A stretch of 64,000 nt of DNA from Solibacillus sp. FSL H8-0538 (lineage in GTDB: Bacteria > Bacillota > Bacilli > Bacillales_A > Planococcaceae): assembly GCF_038003525.1 (NCBI RefSeq), contig NZ_JBBOPI010000001.1, positions 2,409,001 through 2,473,000 of the forward strand, given 5' to 3'. Under the pieces are notes generated by a model. The model did not search any database. It was not told the DNA's origin and saw only the letters and a list, made by a program, of their open reading frames with translations. Below are positions 812 through 58,328 of this stretch, one piece after another. Positions within the stretch are counted from its first letter, which is position 1, and each line of letters begins with the position of its first letter. A program made the position numbers and the translations under genes.

Positions 812-914
812 TAAAACCACTTCCTTTAAATAATTTAAACGCTTCTACGTCTATTACTTCCCTTATTGTAGCGTTTCTTTCGTAAAAAACAATTTTCTGC
901 TATTTAAGAAATTA

Positions 915-999
915 GAAAGACACAACTCGCCCAAAATAGGGCGAGTTGATGTCCTTACTTATGTGGTTAAGAAAGTTATACTTTCTTAACCACTAAAAA
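915..999 (+). repeat. Family A two-hairpin repeat, copy 1
   Basis: Two hairpins: caactcgccc/gggcgagttg with an aaaata loop (about 924-949), and gtggttaagaaagt/actttcttaaccac (963-993). Near-identical copies lie at 46925, 51432 and, split, at 28591-28807; diverged ones at 16525, 27861 and 32887. In hairpin 2 the changed bases on the two arms still pair, which argues for selection on structure. The right end abuts the T-tract of the terminator at 1001-1025. Confidence 0.85.
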
Positions 1000-15274: not shown

Positions 15275-15394
15275 GAAAAGCGCGTTCGCGCCAGTTTGCA
15301 CCTGATAAGCGCTGGAGGAGCCTGACGAGTGTGATTGCACACGTGGGAAGGAACCGAAGCGACCTCAAGGGTGCGGCGCGAAGGCCTGGACATT
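15275..15394 (+). repeat. Family B dispersed repeat, copy 1
   Basis: GC-richer than its surroundings. It starts aaaagcgcgttcgcgcc and ends gtgcggcgcgaaggcctgga, the same frame of motifs as the copy at 19441 (aaaagcgcattcgcgcc ... gcgcgaatgcctagac). It lies between yqeH and aroE. It lacks the AT-rich tail found in the 40305, 49981 and 58159 copies. Confidence 0.75.
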
Positions 15395-15406
15395 CTTTTT
15401 TAATCG

Positions 15407-19439: not shown

Positions 19440-19440
19440 G

Positions 19441-19570
19441 AAAAGCGCATTCGCGCCCGTTTGCACGCGGGCAAGCTGCTTGCGAGCCCGAAGCGAAAGG
19501 AAATGCCCCACCACTTTCGCTAGAGGGCAGACCGCGACCTCGAGCGTGCGGCGCGAATGCCTAGACATTA
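19441..19570 (+). repeat. Family B dispersed repeat, copy 2
   Basis: Starts 1 nt after the sigK stop. aaaagcgcattcgcgcccg is mirrored by gcggcgcgaatgcctagac at the far end, with smaller stems inside (gcccgtttgcacgcgggc). The tail aaagttacactttcttatc resembles hairpin 2 of family A and runs into the A tract of the terminator at 19602. Confidence 0.8.
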
Positions 19571-19601
19571 TCAAAAAGTTACACTTTCTTATCGTTTAAA
19601 A

Positions 19602-26217: not shown

Positions 26218-26362
26218 AAAATCGTAGCGGCAGTTGCATTGGGAATATGACTGACAACGTGCGAGCCTCAGCTGCTTGCAGGTCCGAAGTGATAGTATCT
26301 TTTCGACTATCGCCCATGGGCAGACCGCGACTTTGTGGGTGTAGCGCTTTATTCTAGACATA
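26218..26362 (+). repeat. Family B dispersed repeat, copy 3 (decayed)
   Basis: Recognisable core tgcgagcctcagctgcttgc ... gggcagaccgcgac ... tctagacat, matching the 19441 copy. It lies upstream of trmR, between it and mltG. Confidence 0.65.
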
Positions 26363-26678
26363 TATTTCGTCTTTTACAAATTAAAAAGACGAAACGATGA
26401 TGTTTGCGCCCGTAGCTTCATAAATATATAAGGACAAAAAATTACAACTTATAATAGCACGAAAATAAAAGGAATGCGAATAATCTTTACTAGATTCATC
26501 GACCACTTATGAATATTTATCGCAAACACAATTCATTGAAAATTCAATCGTATCAACGAACTTAACAGGTTGATGCATAATTATTGAAAACTACGCGACT
26601 CAATCCTGCATAATTCTGCAATGAAATTCATACTTTCGGCAAAGAAACTGTAAATTTAGTCGATTCCTTTTTCATTCA
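26363..26678. other. Gene-free interval, mltG-trmR
   Basis: AT-rich with no convincing reading frame, terminator or RNA. The trmR promoter presumably lies near its 5' end but could not be placed confidently. Confidence 0.4.
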
Positions 26679-27800: not shown

Positions 27801-27860
27801 AGGTGTCCCCCCTTAACTCTCTTTCATATGATACAAGATAATACAAAACGTGACAAATTA

Positions 27861-27946
27861 AAAAGACACATCTCACCCAATATAGGGCGAGATGATGTCC
27901 TTATTTATGTTGATAAGAAAGTGTTCCTTTCTTACCTACCAAAAAA
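27861..27946 (+). repeat. Family A two-hairpin repeat, copy at 27.9 kb
   Basis: gacacatctcaccc ... gggcgagatgatgtcc and a second imperfect hairpin gataagaaag/ctttcttac. Its right end abuts the terminator A/T run at 27941-27947. Confidence 0.75.
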
Positions 27947-28590: not shown

Positions 28591-28807
28591 GAAAGATACA
28601 TCGCGCACCAAAATGAGACAACTGAAAAAGTCGATTTATCACGAAAAACATAATACAAAATCACTTATTTCATGGAAAAATCTCAATAAAAAAACAAGAT
28701 TTATACTATAAAAAACCGAACTTTTTCAGTGCCCTACCCCAAAATAGGGCGAGTTGATGTCCTTAACTATGTGGATGGGAAAGTTAACCTTTCTTATCCA
28801 CTAAAAA
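28591..28807 (+). repeat. Family A repeat split by a small inverted-repeat element
   Basis: The left piece (28591-28620, gaaagatacatcgcgcacca) and the right piece (28735-28807, ccccaaaatagggcgagttg onward) together make one family A unit. The 110-bp element at 28621-28730 separates them. The right piece keeps both the gggcgag arm and hairpin 2. Confidence 0.7.
28621..28730. mobile_element. Small MITE-like element with ACTGAAAAAGT ends
   Basis: 11-bp perfect terminal inverted repeats ACTGAAAAAGT (28621-28631) and ACTTTTTCAGT (28720-28730) flank an AT-rich non-coding core. The same ends, with a shared trailing gccct, occur around 40512-41109. No transposase is encoded. Flanking ccaaaat sequences on both sides could be a decayed target duplication. 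Confidence 0.6.
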
Positions 28808-32940: not shown

Positions 32941-33170
32941 CAAAAAAAGCCCTCATCCCCAAAAGGGACGAAGACTGTTATCTCGCGGTACCACCCTAAA
33001 TTATAAAAGCATAAAACTTTTACATCTCAAGCACTTGTAACGTAAGTGAACGGCAGGTATTAGCTGCACTCTGGAGTAGCTTTCCGAATCAAAATGAGGA
33101 GATTTTTTCAGCCGAGAAATCTCTTTCTAAAACACATCTATAAAACGTACTTTTTCCATCATCGTTTTCA
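32941..33170 (-). promoter_or_regulatory. T-box leader of alaS
   Basis: The minus strand contains the T-box sequence AGGGTGGTACCGCGA (32982-32997), preceded by an AGTA-containing stem I region and followed by a terminator hairpin (32945-32976) with a T run. A GCT triplet (33078-33080) directly before actccagag is the candidate Ala specifier. Uncharged tRNA-Ala would favour the antiterminator and read-through into alaS. Confidence 0.9.
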
Positions 33171-33232
33171 TTGTATTCTACTACACATTATAAATAAAAA
33201 CATGGATGTGTGTCAATCGCTTAGACACATCA

Positions 33233-40243: not shown

Positions 40244-40304
40244 TTCCGTAAATATGGGCTGCCTCATATCGCTGTGAGAAGGCCCTTTTAAAAACTATTT
40301 AAGC

Positions 40305-40490
40305 ACAAAAACGCTAAAACACCCGCTTAACCTCGACAAGTACTGAAGAGTCCGAAGTGAAGCGGCTCTTTGCATTCGCCCGAGGACAAATAGCGACCTC
40401 AAGGGGCTAGCGATTTCGCCTAGACTTTGCATTTACTTAGTTGACTGTTATCCACAAGGCGAAATTCAATAATTTCTCTTACAACAAAAA
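40305..40490 (+). repeat. Family B dispersed repeat with tail, copy at 40.3 kb
   Basis: cccgcttaacctcgacaagt ... gtccgaagtgaagcggctc ... gcgacctcaaggggctagcg ... cctagac, then a tail ttatccacaaggcgaaatt ... aatttc. It contains a perfect DnaA-box-like TTATCCACA at 40448-40456. It abuts the A run of the terminator at 40491. Confidence 0.8.
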
Positions 40491-40512
40491 ACACCTCCAA
40501 TTGTTAGGAGTG
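40491..40512 (-). terminator. Minus-strand terminator at 40.5 kb
   Basis: cactcct/aggagtg-type stem (cacctcc/ggaggtg with partial pairing) followed by T's on the minus strand. It may be the original hpaB terminator, now separated from that gene by the element at 40512-41109. Confidence 0.55.
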
Positions 40513-41109
40513 CACTGAAAAACTTACGCCTTAATAATGACGAATCTTCTTCAGGTAAAAATAAGGCGCTTCTTGTTCTATTTTGAACAGGAAGTACTTT
40601 ATTTCTTTCTCTATTCCTTACACTTTTTCATTTAGTAGCTTCAATATTCGTTTCAAATAGACAGCAAATATCGTTGTGGCACAACCATTTTGTAAATCGC
40701 CATAAACGAGCTTAAGTAGAGTCTTTCTTGGTTTGAAATAATTTGGAAACACTAACATTAATTAGTTCCTTTTAGAATACAAAAAAATCACTCTTTTTAG
40801 ATGAGAGAATGACGCATTCATTCTTAACAGTTACAAGTTGATTGGAGTGGAGGCGACGACTTCTAGGGGATTAGCGAGCAGCTTGAGACCCTGGACTGAG
40901 GCCAACACGATGTTGGTCACAAAGGCGTTGCCACAGGACGTGGCGTACTTAGCCTTTGTTCCATTGTTACACAGAAGCGGCTCAAGGCTCGCCCCCAGAA
41001 AAGCGTTCGCCGCAACGGAAATCAACGACATCGAAGTAAAAAGCCAGTTCTTAAACGATGTCTCGTTCAAGAACTGGCTAAACTACTTTATTGACTTTTT
41101 CAGTGCCCT
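40512..41109. mobile_element. Degenerate IS-like / composite element with GCACTGAAAAA ends
   Basis: Left end gcactgaaaaac and right end ctttttcagtgc are inverted repeats like those of the 110-bp element at 28621. Inside, the minus strand near 40531-40615 translates to IEKEIKYFLFKIEQEAP and so on, also found near 49155. A copy of a common Bacillales intergenic repeat fills the right half. No intact transposase remains. The insertion is 5 nt past the hpaB stop. Confidence 0.5.
40838..41080 (+). repeat. Family C repeat (gttgattggagtggaggc type)
   Basis: gttgattggagtggaggcga ... gggattagcgagcagcttga ... cggaaatcaacgacatcgaag, then a hairpin agccagttcttaaacga/tcgttcaagaactggct. I recognise the opening as part of a repeat common in Bacillales intergenic DNA. 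Parts recur near 49348 (ggaaatcaacgaaatcgaa). Confidence 0.6.
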
Positions 41110-46866: not shown

Positions 46867-46924
46867 AAAACGTTAAAACTCCTTTAAAAGGTCTACCTTC
46901 AATAGATAGCCTTCATACAATTTT

Positions 46925-47010
46925 AGAATGACACAACTCGCCCAAAATAGGGCGAGTTGATGTTCATACTTATGTGGATGGGAAAGTTATGCTTTCTTAT
47001 CCACTAAAAA
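46925..47010 (+). repeat. Family A two-hairpin repeat, copy at 46.9 kb
   Basis: acacaactcgccc/gggcgagttgatgt, then gtggatgggaaagt/actttcttatccac (with G-T pairs). Almost identical to the 51432 copy. It abuts the A run (47006-47010) of the cymR terminator. Confidence 0.85.
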
Positions 47011-49477: not shown

Positions 49478-49900
49478 ATGCCAACTGTTTATCACCATAT
49501 CATCGTAGCCATTGATTTTTCTGAACAAGCTAAAAAAGCTTATCAGCGTGCAGTTGAAATTGCTAATTCAACAAATGCGACACTACATTTAGTAAGTGTT
49601 GTGGACACATATTCAAACGCTTCTGTCGAAACATTCGATCGAAAATATGCAGTAAAAATCCATGACGAATACGCACAAAAACTAGAAATTTATAAACAAA
49701 AAGCTATCGAATCCGGTGTTACACACGTTCTCACTCATGTTGAATTCGGCTCACCAAAACAGATTTTAACAAACTTTGAGAAAGCCGAACTTATTGTGAT
49801 CGGTGCAACTGGCTTAAATGCTGCACAACGCTTTATTTTAGGCTCTGTTTCATCAAACGTCGTACGCCATGCCAAATGCGATGTTTTAGTTGTCAAATAA
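49478..49900 (+). CDS. Universal stress protein A family
   Basis: 140 aa UspA fold. HHIIVAIDFSEQAKKAY at the start and the ATP-binding pattern GATGLNAAQRFILGSVSSNVVRHAKCDVLVVK (key residues G-2x-G-9x-GS) at residues about 108-140. Monocistronic; AAGGAGGT precedes the ATG. UspA proteins help stress survival; the specific trigger is unknown. Confidence 0.92.
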   Translation: MPTVYHHIIVAIDFSEQAKKAYQRAVEIANSTNATLHLVSVVDTYSNASVETFDRKYAVKIHDEYAQKLEIYKQKAIESGVTHVLTHVEFGSPKQILTNFEKAELIVIGATGLNAAQRFILGSVSSNVVRHAKCDVLVVK

Positions 49901-49980
49901 AAAAATTCAATAATTTTTTATTCCTTACATTAATTTGTTAGCTTTTTGTAAATTCGTTCTATACTTTATAATCAAGAACA

Positions 49981-50165
49981 AATGCGCTAAAGCGCCTGCT
50001 TAGCCCCGACAAGCGCTGGAGAGCCCGAAGTGAAGGCGCTCTCTTTGCCTTCGCCCGAGGGATCGAAGCGACCTCGAGGGGCTGGCGCTTTAGCCTAGAC
50101 GTAGCATTTACTTTTTTTGAATGTTATCCACATGGCGAAATTTTATAATTTCCTTATCAACAAAA
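49981..50165 (+). repeat. Family B dispersed repeat with tail, copy at 50.0 kb
   Basis: gcgctaaagcgcctgcttag ... gccttcgcccgaggg ... gcgacctcgaggggctggcgctttagcctagac (long inverted ends), then the tail ttatccacatggcgaaat with perfect TTATCCACA at 50124-50132. It abuts the A run of the terminator at 50164. Confidence 0.85.
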
Positions 50166-50208
50166 AAGCTGTCCGAGCGAAACGAATCTTTTCGCTCGGA
50201 CAGCTTTT
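50164..50208. terminator. Bidirectional terminator, uspA / 50252 gene
   Basis: Perfect stem aaaagctgtccgagcgaaa/tttcgctcggacagctttt with A and T flanks; convergent genes on either side. Confidence 0.9.
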
Positions 50209-50251
50209 TACTAGAAACTTTATCTAGCATTCTATTCATAACATGTCGTTT

Positions 50252-50755
50252 TTATTCATATGTCTTACATAATGAATAAAACGACTCCATACATTCCTTC
50301 ATAGTACAGCCGAGGGAAACATTCATAGTCGCACGATCTTCTTCTGGGGCAATTTCTTGTAGACTTACAGTAAGCTCTTGTAAAAATTGTTCATTTTGTT
50401 CGAGCTTAGCATTTGGTAAACAAGTTGCACTTTTTTTATACAAATTAACAATATGATTTTTTGCACCTTCGTCTTGCAAATCAATTAACTGGGCATGTGT
50501 TAGCCCATTAAAATAAACCAGTCGCGACGCAATATCCATAAATAGTACCCAGTACGGATTACTTTTTGGTAATTCACCAGCATTTTTTTCCACATATTGA
50601 TTAAAAAAGTTGACCATTTGGTGCAGTAAATCGTCGAGAATCGAATACGCTTTTTGCCAATTTTTTGTTGTATCAACATAATCGAAAACCGTTTCATCCA
50701 TTTTACTTTGAAGACTCGCCAAGTTTAACATTTTATTCGTTACTTGAATGTTCAT
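50252..50755 (-). CDS. Hypothetical protein, 167 aa
   Basis: Family not recognised. Soluble, helix-rich, no signal peptide. Features include two Cys near the C-terminus (SLGCTMKECMESF) plus CKTYE at the end, and a central NGLTHAQLIDLQDEG stretch. It has its own terminator and an AT-rich upstream region, so it is likely single-gene. Genus-level accessory is my guess. Confidence 0.7.
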   Translation of the reverse strand: MNIQVTNKMLNLASLQSKMDETVFDYVDTTKNWQKAYSILDDLLHQMVNFFNQYVEKNAGELPKSNPYWVLFMDIASRLVYFNGLTHAQLIDLQDEGAKNHIVNLYKKSATCLPNAKLEQNEQFLQELTVSLQEIAPEEDRATMNVSLGCTMKECMESFYSLCKTYE

Positions 50756-51378: not shown

Positions 51379-51431
51379 CTTCGTGTCATCTCCTCATACG
51401 ACCAAGCGCTAAGTATTATCGACAAATAGTT

Positions 51432-51517
51432 AGAAAGACACAACTCGCCCAAAATAGGGCGAGTTGATGTCCTTACTTATGTGGATGGGAAAGTTATACT
51501 TTCTTATCCACCAAAAA
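51432..51517 (+). repeat. Family A two-hairpin repeat, best-preserved copy
   Basis: gacacaactcgccc/gggcgagttgatgtc, spacer cttactta, gtggatgggaaagt/actttcttatccac. The right end meets the A run (T run on the minus strand) of the tcdA terminator. Used as the family reference. Confidence 0.88.
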
Positions 51518-52375: not shown

Positions 52376-52622
52376 AAAAAACTCTCCTGCAAGTGCAGAA
52401 GAGCTTTAGACAAGGAATTAGACGAACCCCGAATATGCCGTTATGTTAATAACACCGTTTTGAACCCGCATCCTAGCAGGGGGGTGCCCTAATCTTTACG
52501 TTAAACGTCCCTCTCCAATGGGGCATGTTTGCAGCAAAAGAAATGAGTGGCTCCCAACGATATAATGTTCGGTCAAAACTGTTAAGAAACATTTGCGTAA
52601 CAAACATCTCAGGTTTCGTATT
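52376..52622 (-). ncRNA. ssrS: 6S RNA (bsrA/6S-1 position)
   Basis: Gene-free, GC-richer interval between tcdA and aspS, which is exactly where B. subtilis encodes 6S-1 RNA. A good promoter precedes it: TTGAAT (52652-52657), 17 nt, TAAGAT (52629-52634). A terminator hairpin (52381-52405) with T's ends it. The interior can pair end to end (gaccgaac at 52568-52575 with gttcgtc at 52421-52427) and holds G/C-rich inner stems. Called by position, promoter and foldability; ends are approximate. 6S RNA binds sigma-A RNA polymerase. Confidence 0.7.
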
Positions 52623-55974: not shown

Positions 55975-56085
55975 GCCTGCAGAATGCAGATCAGTTAGCC
56001 GTTGTCGCATGAATACGACGTTCTTAGGCTAGCATCCAACATTACGAAATCTGTGACATCCGCGGGAGGCTTTTTGTTTTCCCAT
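55975..56085 (-). repeat. Family E-like fragment in the hisS leader
   Basis: On the minus strand gcctcccgcggatgtcacag parallels gcctacggtggatgtcatag of the 3945-4140 copy. It is followed by imperfect hairpins (gctagcctaagaa/ggctaac, and a gcctgcagaatgcagat pair). It lies between the T-box terminator and the hisS start codon. Confidence 0.45.
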
Positions 56086-56094
56086 GGTAAAACA

Positions 56095-56390
56095 CAAAAA
56101 AGCTTTCGTCCCCTGCATAATAAATGCAAGGGACGAAAGCTTGAAAAGTCTTCCGCGGTTCCACCCTAGTTGATGTATTGCTACATCCTCTCGTATTCGG
56201 ATAACGGCCGATTCCGTTTTCCCCTACTAAACAACAAGTTGTTCGAAGAAAAGCCTCTTAAGTGTTGTTCGCATGTTACTTACTGTAGGAAAGATTTCAG
56301 CCTATGTCTTTCCCTCTCTTGTCAGCATTGGTAGCAGCTACTTGCTTGGTCAATGGCGATATTACGTCTTTAGATTAATCCTTATGTTAA
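56095..56390 (-). promoter_or_regulatory. T-box leader of hisS-aspS
   Basis: T-box sequence AGGGTGGAACCGCGGA (56152-56167) on the minus strand, then a terminator with stem agctttcgtccc/gggacgaaagct (56101-56142) and a T run. The specifier region holds overlapping triplets AAC and CAC (AACAC, 56262-56266). CAC would read tRNA-His. Confidence 0.9.
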
Positions 56391-56526: not shown

Positions 56527-58158
56527 ATGCGAAAAGTATCGCTTCAATTATTAATGAGTTGTGTATTAATATTTTTAGTAGCTACGCCCTCATTTCTTAA
56601 TGAGCACGTATTTGCAGATGATGGCAAAAAAGCGGATTTAGTCGTATCTGCTGAAATCTTACATTTACGTGAAGGACCAGGACTATCCTACCCTATAATT
56701 GAAACATTAAAGGATGGACAAGCGCTTAGATCTATTGAACAGCAAGGAGACTGGATTCATGTACAAGTAGGGGATTTAGATGGGTGGGTGGCTTCTTGGC
56801 TAACGCAACCCTCTGCACAGGAGGTTGTCGAAGAATCGCAAAAAAGTATCATCTCTCAAGTAGATCATTTAAATGTCCGTTCAGAGCCCTCACTATCAGC
56901 AGCCGTTTTGACACAGCTTTCATCTGGCACTGAAGCGGTTTTGATAAAGCAACAGCAAGACTGGATTCAAATTCAATATGGAGATTTTATAGGGTGGGTT
57001 TCAGCAATTTATGTAACGATTAATGACAACATCCTTACTTCAACAGAAACAGAGACAGAGACAGATACAGATACAGATACAGAAGAAGTCCCTCCTGAAC
57101 AACCAGAAAATAATTTGCTCGATATTGAAAATGATCCGAATACATTTATGATTTCAGTAAATGCAGTAAATATTCGTAAAAAAGCGGACTTAACTTCTAA
57201 AAAGCTTGGTGTCGGTAAAAAGGGGCAGCAGTTTAAAGTTGTGAGTCGCAATAATAACTGGGTGCAAATTGAATACACGAACAAGAAAAAAGGCTGGGTG
57301 TATAGCTTTTACGGCACATTTGCTGCGAAAACTGTTAGTACTACCGCAGATGAATCAGCACCACCTACAGAAAGCGTAACGATAATTTATAACGGCACGA
57401 ATTTACGCGAAAATGCCTCGACCTCTTCAAATGTTGTAACACGTGTAAATGCAGGAGAAACATTCACCATCCTTGCAACTGAAGGTGAATGGTATAAAAT
57501 TGACCTCGGTAATAATCAAGTAGCCTATGTGGCAAACTGGGTCGTTACAAATAGTAATTCACAAGATATCATAACAGCGACTACTACTGAACCGCGCAAA
57601 AAAGGGACCTTACAAGGGGTTACCATTGTTCTTGATCCGGGCCACGGTGGGAATGATCACGGCACTACCGGCAACCGTGGTACGGCAGAAAAAGAGATTA
57701 CTACTAAAACTGCCGAGTTGCTTAAATCAAAGCTACGCGCAGCTGGAGCCGATGTTATATTAACGCGTGAGTCCGATGTTTATGTAGATTTGCGTAAGCG
57801 TGTCGCAATTGCACATCAATCAGTAGCAGACGCCTTTGTCAGTATCCACTACGACGCAATTGAGGATACCTCAGTTACAGGCTTTACAACATACTATACA
57901 AATAGCTATCAGAAAAATCTAGCTGAATATGTCCATAGTGGCCTTGCTACAAAGGTGTCAATTCGTGACCGCGGCGTTCGTGCTGGCAACTATTTAGTAT
58001 TACGTGAAAATCGTCAAAATGCGATTTTAATTGAACTCGGTTATTTAAGTAATCCCAATGAAGAGCGTACAATCGCAACGGATTATTACCGTGAGCAAGC
58101 TACCCTTGGTATTTACCAAGGCTTATTGAACTATTTTGATGCACAACTAACAGATTAA
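56527..58158 (+). CDS. Secreted N-acetylmuramoyl-L-alanine amidase with four SH3b domains
   Basis: 543 aa, YrvJ-like. A signal peptide (residues 1-31, ending VFADD region) is followed by SH3b wall-binding domains at about 36-95, 108-168, 210-270 and 284-345. Each has an LxLREGPGLSYP or LNVRSEPS type core. The Amidase_3 domain (about 365-540) carries zinc ligands in VLDPGHGGND, AEKEI and SIHYDAIED, with the catalytic Glu in ILIELGYLSN. A Thr/Glu/Asp linker after domain 2 is encoded by a hexanucleotide repeat. Likely acts in cell separation or wall turnover. Confidence 0.95.
   Translation: MRKVSLQLLMSCVLIFLVATPSFLNEHVFADDGKKADLVVSAEILHLREGPGLSYPIIETLKDGQALRSIEQQGDWIHVQVGDLDGWVASWLTQPSAQEVVEESQKSIISQVDHLNVRSEPSLSAAVLTQLSSGTEAVLIKQQQDWIQIQYGDFIGWVSAIYVTINDNILTSTETETETDTDTDTEEVPPEQPENNLLDIENDPNTFMISVNAVNIRKKADLTSKKLGVGKKGQQFKVVSRNNNWVQIEYTNKKKGWVYSFYGTFAAKTVSTTADESAPPTESVTIIYNGTNLRENASTSSNVVTRVNAGETFTILATEGEWYKIDLGNNQVAYVANWVVTNSNSQDIITATTTEPRKKGTLQGVTIVLDPGHGGNDHGTTGNRGTAEKEITTKTAELLKSKLRAAGADVILTRESDVYVDLRKRVAIAHQSVADAFVSIHYDAIEDTSVTGFTTYYTNSYQKNLAEYVHSGLATKVSIRDRGVRAGNYLVLRENRQNAILIELGYLSNPNEERTIATDYYREQATLGIYQGLLNYFDAQLTD
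57043..57083 (+). repeat. acagag/acagat microsatellite in the amidase gene
   Basis: About seven tandem 6-bp units encoding Thr-Glu and Thr-Asp pairs. Unit changes of 6 bp keep the frame, so linker length could vary between strains. Confidence 0.8.
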
Positions 58159-58328
58159 AAGTGCTTGCTTTGCCCTAACAACCGCTGTAGACTCCGAAGT
58201 GAAGGCGCTCTTTGCCTTCGCCTGAGGACAATATACCGCGAACTCGAGGGGCTGGCGCTTTCGCCTAGACGTTGCATTTACTTTTTTAAATGTTATCTAC
58301 AAAGCGAAATTTTTTAATTTCCTTAACA
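58159..58328 (+). repeat. Family B dispersed repeat with tail, copy at 58.2 kb
   Basis: gtgcttgctttgccctaaca ... ggcgctctttgccttcgcctg ... ctcgaggggctggcgctttcgcctagac, and a tail ttatctacaaagcgaaatt ... aatttcc. The DnaA-like box has one mismatch here. It runs into the terminator at 58333. Confidence 0.8.

Follow-up and report, generated by a model that had tools for sequence, protein, structure and literature searches.

Short gene-less repeats behind terminators nearly all share one orientation relative to replication in Solibacillus and in two other genera

Four repeats in a stretch of the Solibacillus sp. FSL H8-0538 chromosome all belong to one family of mobile DNA pieces that are short and carry no gene. 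What is chiefly new is their orientation relative to replication, a link that is seen in four genomes. The stretch analysed, hereafter the window, is 64 kb long and covers positions 2409001-2473000 of a 3.741 Mb chromosome (C1). The repeats, 80-190 bp long, fall into three related types of non-autonomous mobile element, B, B' and A. They have defined boundaries and lie against terminators, and filled and empty sites differ by the element alone, with no duplication of the target.

All copies in the window lie on the plus strand. A family B copy at 49976..50160 (GAAC...CTTATCAA) consists of a long hairpin core followed by a tail, in which the DnaA-box-like TTATCCACA occupies 50124..50132. The right-end module of this tail (50136..50157) is a weak hairpin, GAAATT-TTAT-AATTTC, then CTTATC. 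Next to it, at 50161..50208 on the minus strand, the minus-strand gene 50252-50755 has its terminator, and insertion targets the T-run of this terminator (plus-strand A-run 50162-50167). Two further B copies lie at 40304..40486, with TTATCCACA at 40448-40456, and at 58156..58328, with a box carrying one mismatch (TTATCTACA, 58293-58301) and a decayed left end that abuts the stop codon of the plus gene. The copy at 19440..19593 has a core of the B type, the tail AAAGTTACACTTTCTTATC and no box. A first-pass annotation had reported repeats at 19441, 40305, 49981 and 58159. All four are present, as are the boxes that it placed at 40448 and 50124 and the mismatched box of the last copy, at 58293. 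The repeat at 19441, which it had grouped in family B, is real but belongs to a distinct subfamily, B', without the box. Two degraded copies were missing from its list: a B' copy at 15275..15397 and a B copy at 26269..26382, in a tandem (minus-minus) gap. Family A copies were found at 912..993, 27858..27939, 46923..47004 and 51430..51511; they follow the same placement and orientation rule as B and have a related right end. The plus-strand genes 5' of the four originally reported copies encode, in order, a sigma factor, His_biosynth, Usp and an amidase, and the minus-strand genes 3' of them a phosphorylase, HpaB, a product with no Pfam hit and a Mn catalase. Rfam searches of the window and of 49900-50250 gave no family matching the repeats. 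Elsewhere in the window, Rfam matches were to Bacillaceae-1 RNA (40902-40968 and 55976-56043, minus strand), T-box leaders (32961-33171 and 56126-56362) and 6S RNA (52422-52618).

Family B is about 183 bp long, too short for a transposase gene, and runs from GAACAAAAGCGC to CTTAACAA. Over its first 125 bp it folds into a long, imperfect hairpin in which some pairs are compensated, so that the long inverted core described earlier is real; wobble pairs in this core point to the plus strand as the one with pairing kept. The tail is made of GTTATCCACA, about 15 nt, a weak hairpin and TTTCCTTAACA. Palindromes are found near both B termini and terminal inverted repeats are absent. In B', the tail AAAGTTATACTTTCTTATC is attached to a B-type core, and the right end is that of family A, which is composed of two hairpins. 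A right-end hairpin followed by CTTAWC (CTTATC or CTTAAC) is common to A, B and B', in agreement with the earlier suggestion that A and B share a right-end module. Changes in hairpin 2 of family A are compensated (TTATCCAC to TTAACCAC or CTAGCCAC); therefore the letters of the "box" vary while pairing is kept.

The family is also larger than first reported. Homology searches of the own genome scored at least 40 B copies at E 1e-8 or better, far above chance. As 40 hits were scored per query and further candidates were left unscored, all copy counts are lower bounds. A profile search of 563 kb of the own chromosome, composed of the stretches around hits and a 200 kb stretch across the terminus, recovered at least 56 B, at least 23 B' and at least 86 A copies, which bears out the claim of a dispersed family B. 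Identity to the window copy reaches 95% among B copies and several A copies are 100% identical to each other, indicating recent spread. Among the scored matches, B copies were unevenly distributed along the chromosome, and the second contig (191 kb) was without any BLAST hit. Plasmid and phage collections gave no match to B, and the plasmid collection none to A; the genome's own plasmid stretch had no near match there either. The exact tail pattern had no match in a genome-contig collection, which may leave out the own records. No autonomous parent was found, the tail-only copies inspected being deletion variants.

Elements of all three types end on the A-run of a terminator. Their 3' flank consists of this A-run and then a hairpin, which together make up the terminator of the next gene downstream, a gene running in the opposite direction, as the first-pass annotation had stated for its four copies. 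A hairpin with z < -2 was detected in the 3' flank of 28/30 B and 10/11 B' copies, and less regularly in A (37/62). The corresponding values for the 5' flank were 1/34, 0/17 and 8/53. The stop codon downstream is mostly reached around 40-60 nt past the element 3' end, the length of a terminator, and the 5' end is often separated by only 0-2 nt from an upstream plus-strand gene's stop codon. Elements can also be stacked, B'-A and B-A pairs abutting directly. Flanking by a plus gene and a minus gene is true of the four listed copies but not of every copy, since 26269-26382 lies between two minus-strand genes. Indeed, convergent gaps hold only 20 of the 54 classified B copies (37%) and 7 of the 23 B' copies, compared to 7 of the 36 gaps of the window (19%), and more B copies are found in tandem gaps than in convergent ones. 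Convergent placement is thus a tendency, and the rule proposed earlier does not hold.

Orientation relative to replication is nearly always the same. The first base of the chromosome is at dnaA (recognised by translation), the GC skew changes sign near 1.86-1.885 Mb and a dif-like site lies near 1.873 Mb. Among copies at a distance of over 100 kb from the terminus, 137 of 143 share one orientation relative to replication, with 49/50 B, 21/21 B' and 67/72 A in agreement with the fork rule. Within 100 kb of the terminus, 13 copies agree and 9 disagree (far versus near, p = 8e-6). In convergent gaps, where the gene context is mirror-symmetric, agreement is found for 33/35 copies (p = 4e-8). The pattern is repeated, with a strand switch near mid-chromosome, in three genomes from two other genera. 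Assuming that contigs start near the origin, all copies agree in two of them (G090, 17/17; G146, 16/16), and in the third (G157) agreement is 33/40 with the switch at mid-length and 36/40 at the best switch point. At C1 1524657-1526105, one A copy and one B copy occur together and both point the wrong way, the arrangement expected from a small local inversion.

Empty sites in orthologous gaps of sister genomes, a check proposed with the first description of the repeats, were found in Lysinibacillus. One locus is occupied in three genomes (G177, G168 and G208) and empty in three others (G140, G188 and G199). The empty site reads ATATCT-TAAAAAAGGG and the filled site ATATCT-(GAAC...TTAACAA)-TAAAAAAGGG; joining is exact, with neither duplication nor loss. 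The sequence of the G177 copy is that of the L. xylanilyticus DSM 23493 copy. Similarly, a family A copy is present in one IS200 (L130) and missing from another (L128), again without target-site duplication. The L130 copy (1327-1413) lies directly 3' of the IS200 tnpA, opposite to the orientation rule. The elements are themselves hit by others: an IS with a 560-aa transposase and the ends GGGCACTGAAAAA...TTTTTCAGTGCCC has entered three B/B' copies at one and the same position of the hairpin (L221, L222 and L223; C1 274-279, 1852-1857 and 1945-1950 kb), in both orientations, which resembles insertions into REP or PATE palindromes. IS ends of this type also bound an insert of about 240 bp in the left-end hairpin of the L128 IS200 (1121-1360). 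In the window, one such end, at 28722, adjoins a family A hairpin, and two, at 40510 and 41096, enclose about 0.6 kb adjacent to the 40305 copy, adjoining its terminator hairpin.

The box had been taken as a possible link to DnaA. The DnaA box consensus has a fixed third base and a free fifth base. Among 51 own-genome B copies, conservation within the box is lowest at the third base (75%) and reaches 96% at the fifth. The mean identity of the box 9-mer is 0.92, versus 0.86 over all 9-mers, which ranks it 31 of 183. The consensus of the B tail reads TTATCCACA in the own genome, in Lysinibacillus and in two more genera, which leaves some probability to DnaA binding. It was exact in 6 of 16 cross-genus copies, a small sample picked without regard to the box. 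Two loci of another genus (L034 and L036, in G003) carry a B tail with a perfect TTATCCACA on a strongly diverged core and again end at a terminator. B' has no box, yet it is placed and oriented as B. The link to DnaA is therefore unsupported: the box is not preferentially conserved, B' lacks it, and in A its letters change together with their pairing partners. It is part of the repeat, with no clear sign of a working DnaA site, and most likely belongs to the end sequence of the element rather than being a DnaA control site.

Our preferred reading of how the elements move, which we hold with a little more confidence than doubt, is that a non-autonomous element inserts as single-stranded DNA behind terminator hairpins of the lagging-strand template, probably through an IS200-type Y1 TnpA acting in trans. 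On the element's minus strand, the target is a terminator hairpin and its T-run, and the element is spliced directly after the T-run without target-site duplication. Read on this strand, its first feature is a weak hairpin with TAAG at the foot; its last is a GC hairpin, behind which comes a T-rich end resembling the target. The minus strand of the element is the lagging-strand template, single-stranded at each fork. This exposure would explain why orientation is near-absolute, why it breaks down near the terminus and why elements stack behind one terminator, and insertion of a single strand behind a lagging-template hairpin would cover polarity, target, lack of duplication, mixing at the terminus and stacking together. 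IS200/IS605 elements make no duplications, have hairpin ends whose foot carries a guide and favour the template of the lagging strand (PMC7290912, PMC5371812). The own genome contains three intact IS200-type TnpA genes, and all three elements lie directly after a terminator T-run; a search of the same genome gave no reverse transcriptase domain. Both the single-stranded DNA pathway and the trans-acting enzyme are inferred, Y1 TnpA being the first candidate for the latter. IS200/IS605-type insertion occurs 3' of a fixed tetra- or pentanucleotide; here, the T-run of the target is most often extended by one purine, and complementarity to the guide is only suggestive. Several observations run against this reading. 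The ends of the resident IS200 show no sequence similarity to B ends, and an autonomous element with B-type ends was not found. The A copy in IS200 violates the orientation rule, wobble pairs favour folding of the plus strand when the proposed active strand is the minus, and the inverted core exceeds the typical length of IS200 hairpins. Other enzymes could yield the same pattern. We give some room to a distinct class of single-stranded DNA elements, unlikely as it is, that would use a recombinase other than the known Y1 or intron enzymes, with an end that mimics a terminator and so leads to stacking, and with an orientation that records replication direction.

The placement of the repeats is also that of group IIC (bacterial-C) introns, which insert right after rho-independent terminators with a preference for the lagging-strand template (PMC8919778). 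A minus-strand RNA could thus be inserted behind lagging-template terminator hairpins by an intron reverse transcriptase in trans, and the plus-strand 5' truncation of several copies would fit. We regard this route as rather unlikely, since the own genome has no reverse transcriptase domain although A copies up to 100% identical indicate recent activity, Rfam gave no intron match in the window or in 49900-50250, and a domain V was not recognised by eye. Polarity that is near-absolute in four genomes might instead reflect function: DnaA-binding sites, or sites for fork or transcription conflicts at gene 3' ends, would be kept for an action in one orientation relative to the fork, wrong-way copies being purged. 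The consensus of the box across several genera is consistent with this, as is the restriction of scored matches to the chromosome in the own genome, with no match in plasmid or phage collections. Nevertheless, positions are not conserved and sites are empty in close relatives, the box is without preferential conservation and absent from B', and the spread along the chromosome is uneven; such a selective origin is unlikely.

Gene orientation alone deserves still less weight. Elements with a fixed polarity relative to terminators would follow the mostly leading-strand genes, and terminators are indeed the target, with 82% of window genes co-directional with replication. However, 137/143 is above this 82% (p = 7e-7), and the 50% predicted in convergent gaps is contradicted by the 33/35 observed, which makes this explanation highly improbable. 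Least probable of all is a classic MITE of the bcr1 type, mobilised by a DDE transposase. Size, copy number and intergenic location fit such an element, but no terminal inverted repeats join the ends, and the lack of target-site duplication at two empty sites contradicts it.

Altogether, terminator targeting is here joined to a strict replication polarity in elements with no recognised ribozyme and in a genome where no reverse transcriptase domain was found. For Planococcaceae, the repeats offer a natural, high-copy readout of the direction of forks and of the exposure of the lagging strand, and their defined ends and empty sites provide a means to find the enzyme.

Among dispersed intergenic repeats of Firmicutes, they resemble bcr1 of Bacillus cereus, which differs in being flanked by TTTAT motifs, and BOX, RUP and SPRITE of pneumococcus. 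The pneumococcal repeats are likewise enriched between convergent genes, but the leading strand carries only 61-63% of them (PMC3049150). REP/REPIN-RAYT systems are also high-copy, non-autonomous palindromic repeats tied to Y1 transposases, whereas no Y1 gene flanked by B- or A-type repeats was found here. CGTC-tagged REPs were set aside: a CGTC motif is the sole link, and the text of the describing paper is without mention of Firmicutes. With group IIC introns, the repeats share insertion directly behind rho-independent terminators and the lagging-strand template; they differ in having no recognised ribozyme and a genome without reverse transcriptase. PATEs, the IS605-related palindrome-associated transposable elements of Haloquadratum, are close in several respects, as far as the cited passages go: a similar non-coding length, a palindrome close to either end, neither terminal inverted repeats nor target duplication, and hairpins that are themselves hit by other elements (PMC3119063). 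PATE ends nevertheless match IS605-type ends, whereas B ends are unlike the resident IS200 loci, and terminator targeting with strict replication polarity is not among the PATE features in those passages (PMC3119063). As the similarity to IS200/IS605 ends was lacking in the comparison with resident IS200 loci, we do not class the repeats as PATE members. Finally, compared with IS200/IS605 elements themselves, the repeats have no transposase gene and an end sequence unrelated to that of the resident IS200, but they share the lack of target-site duplication, the hairpin ends and the lagging-template orientation, and the resident IS200 elements also lie behind terminator T-runs.
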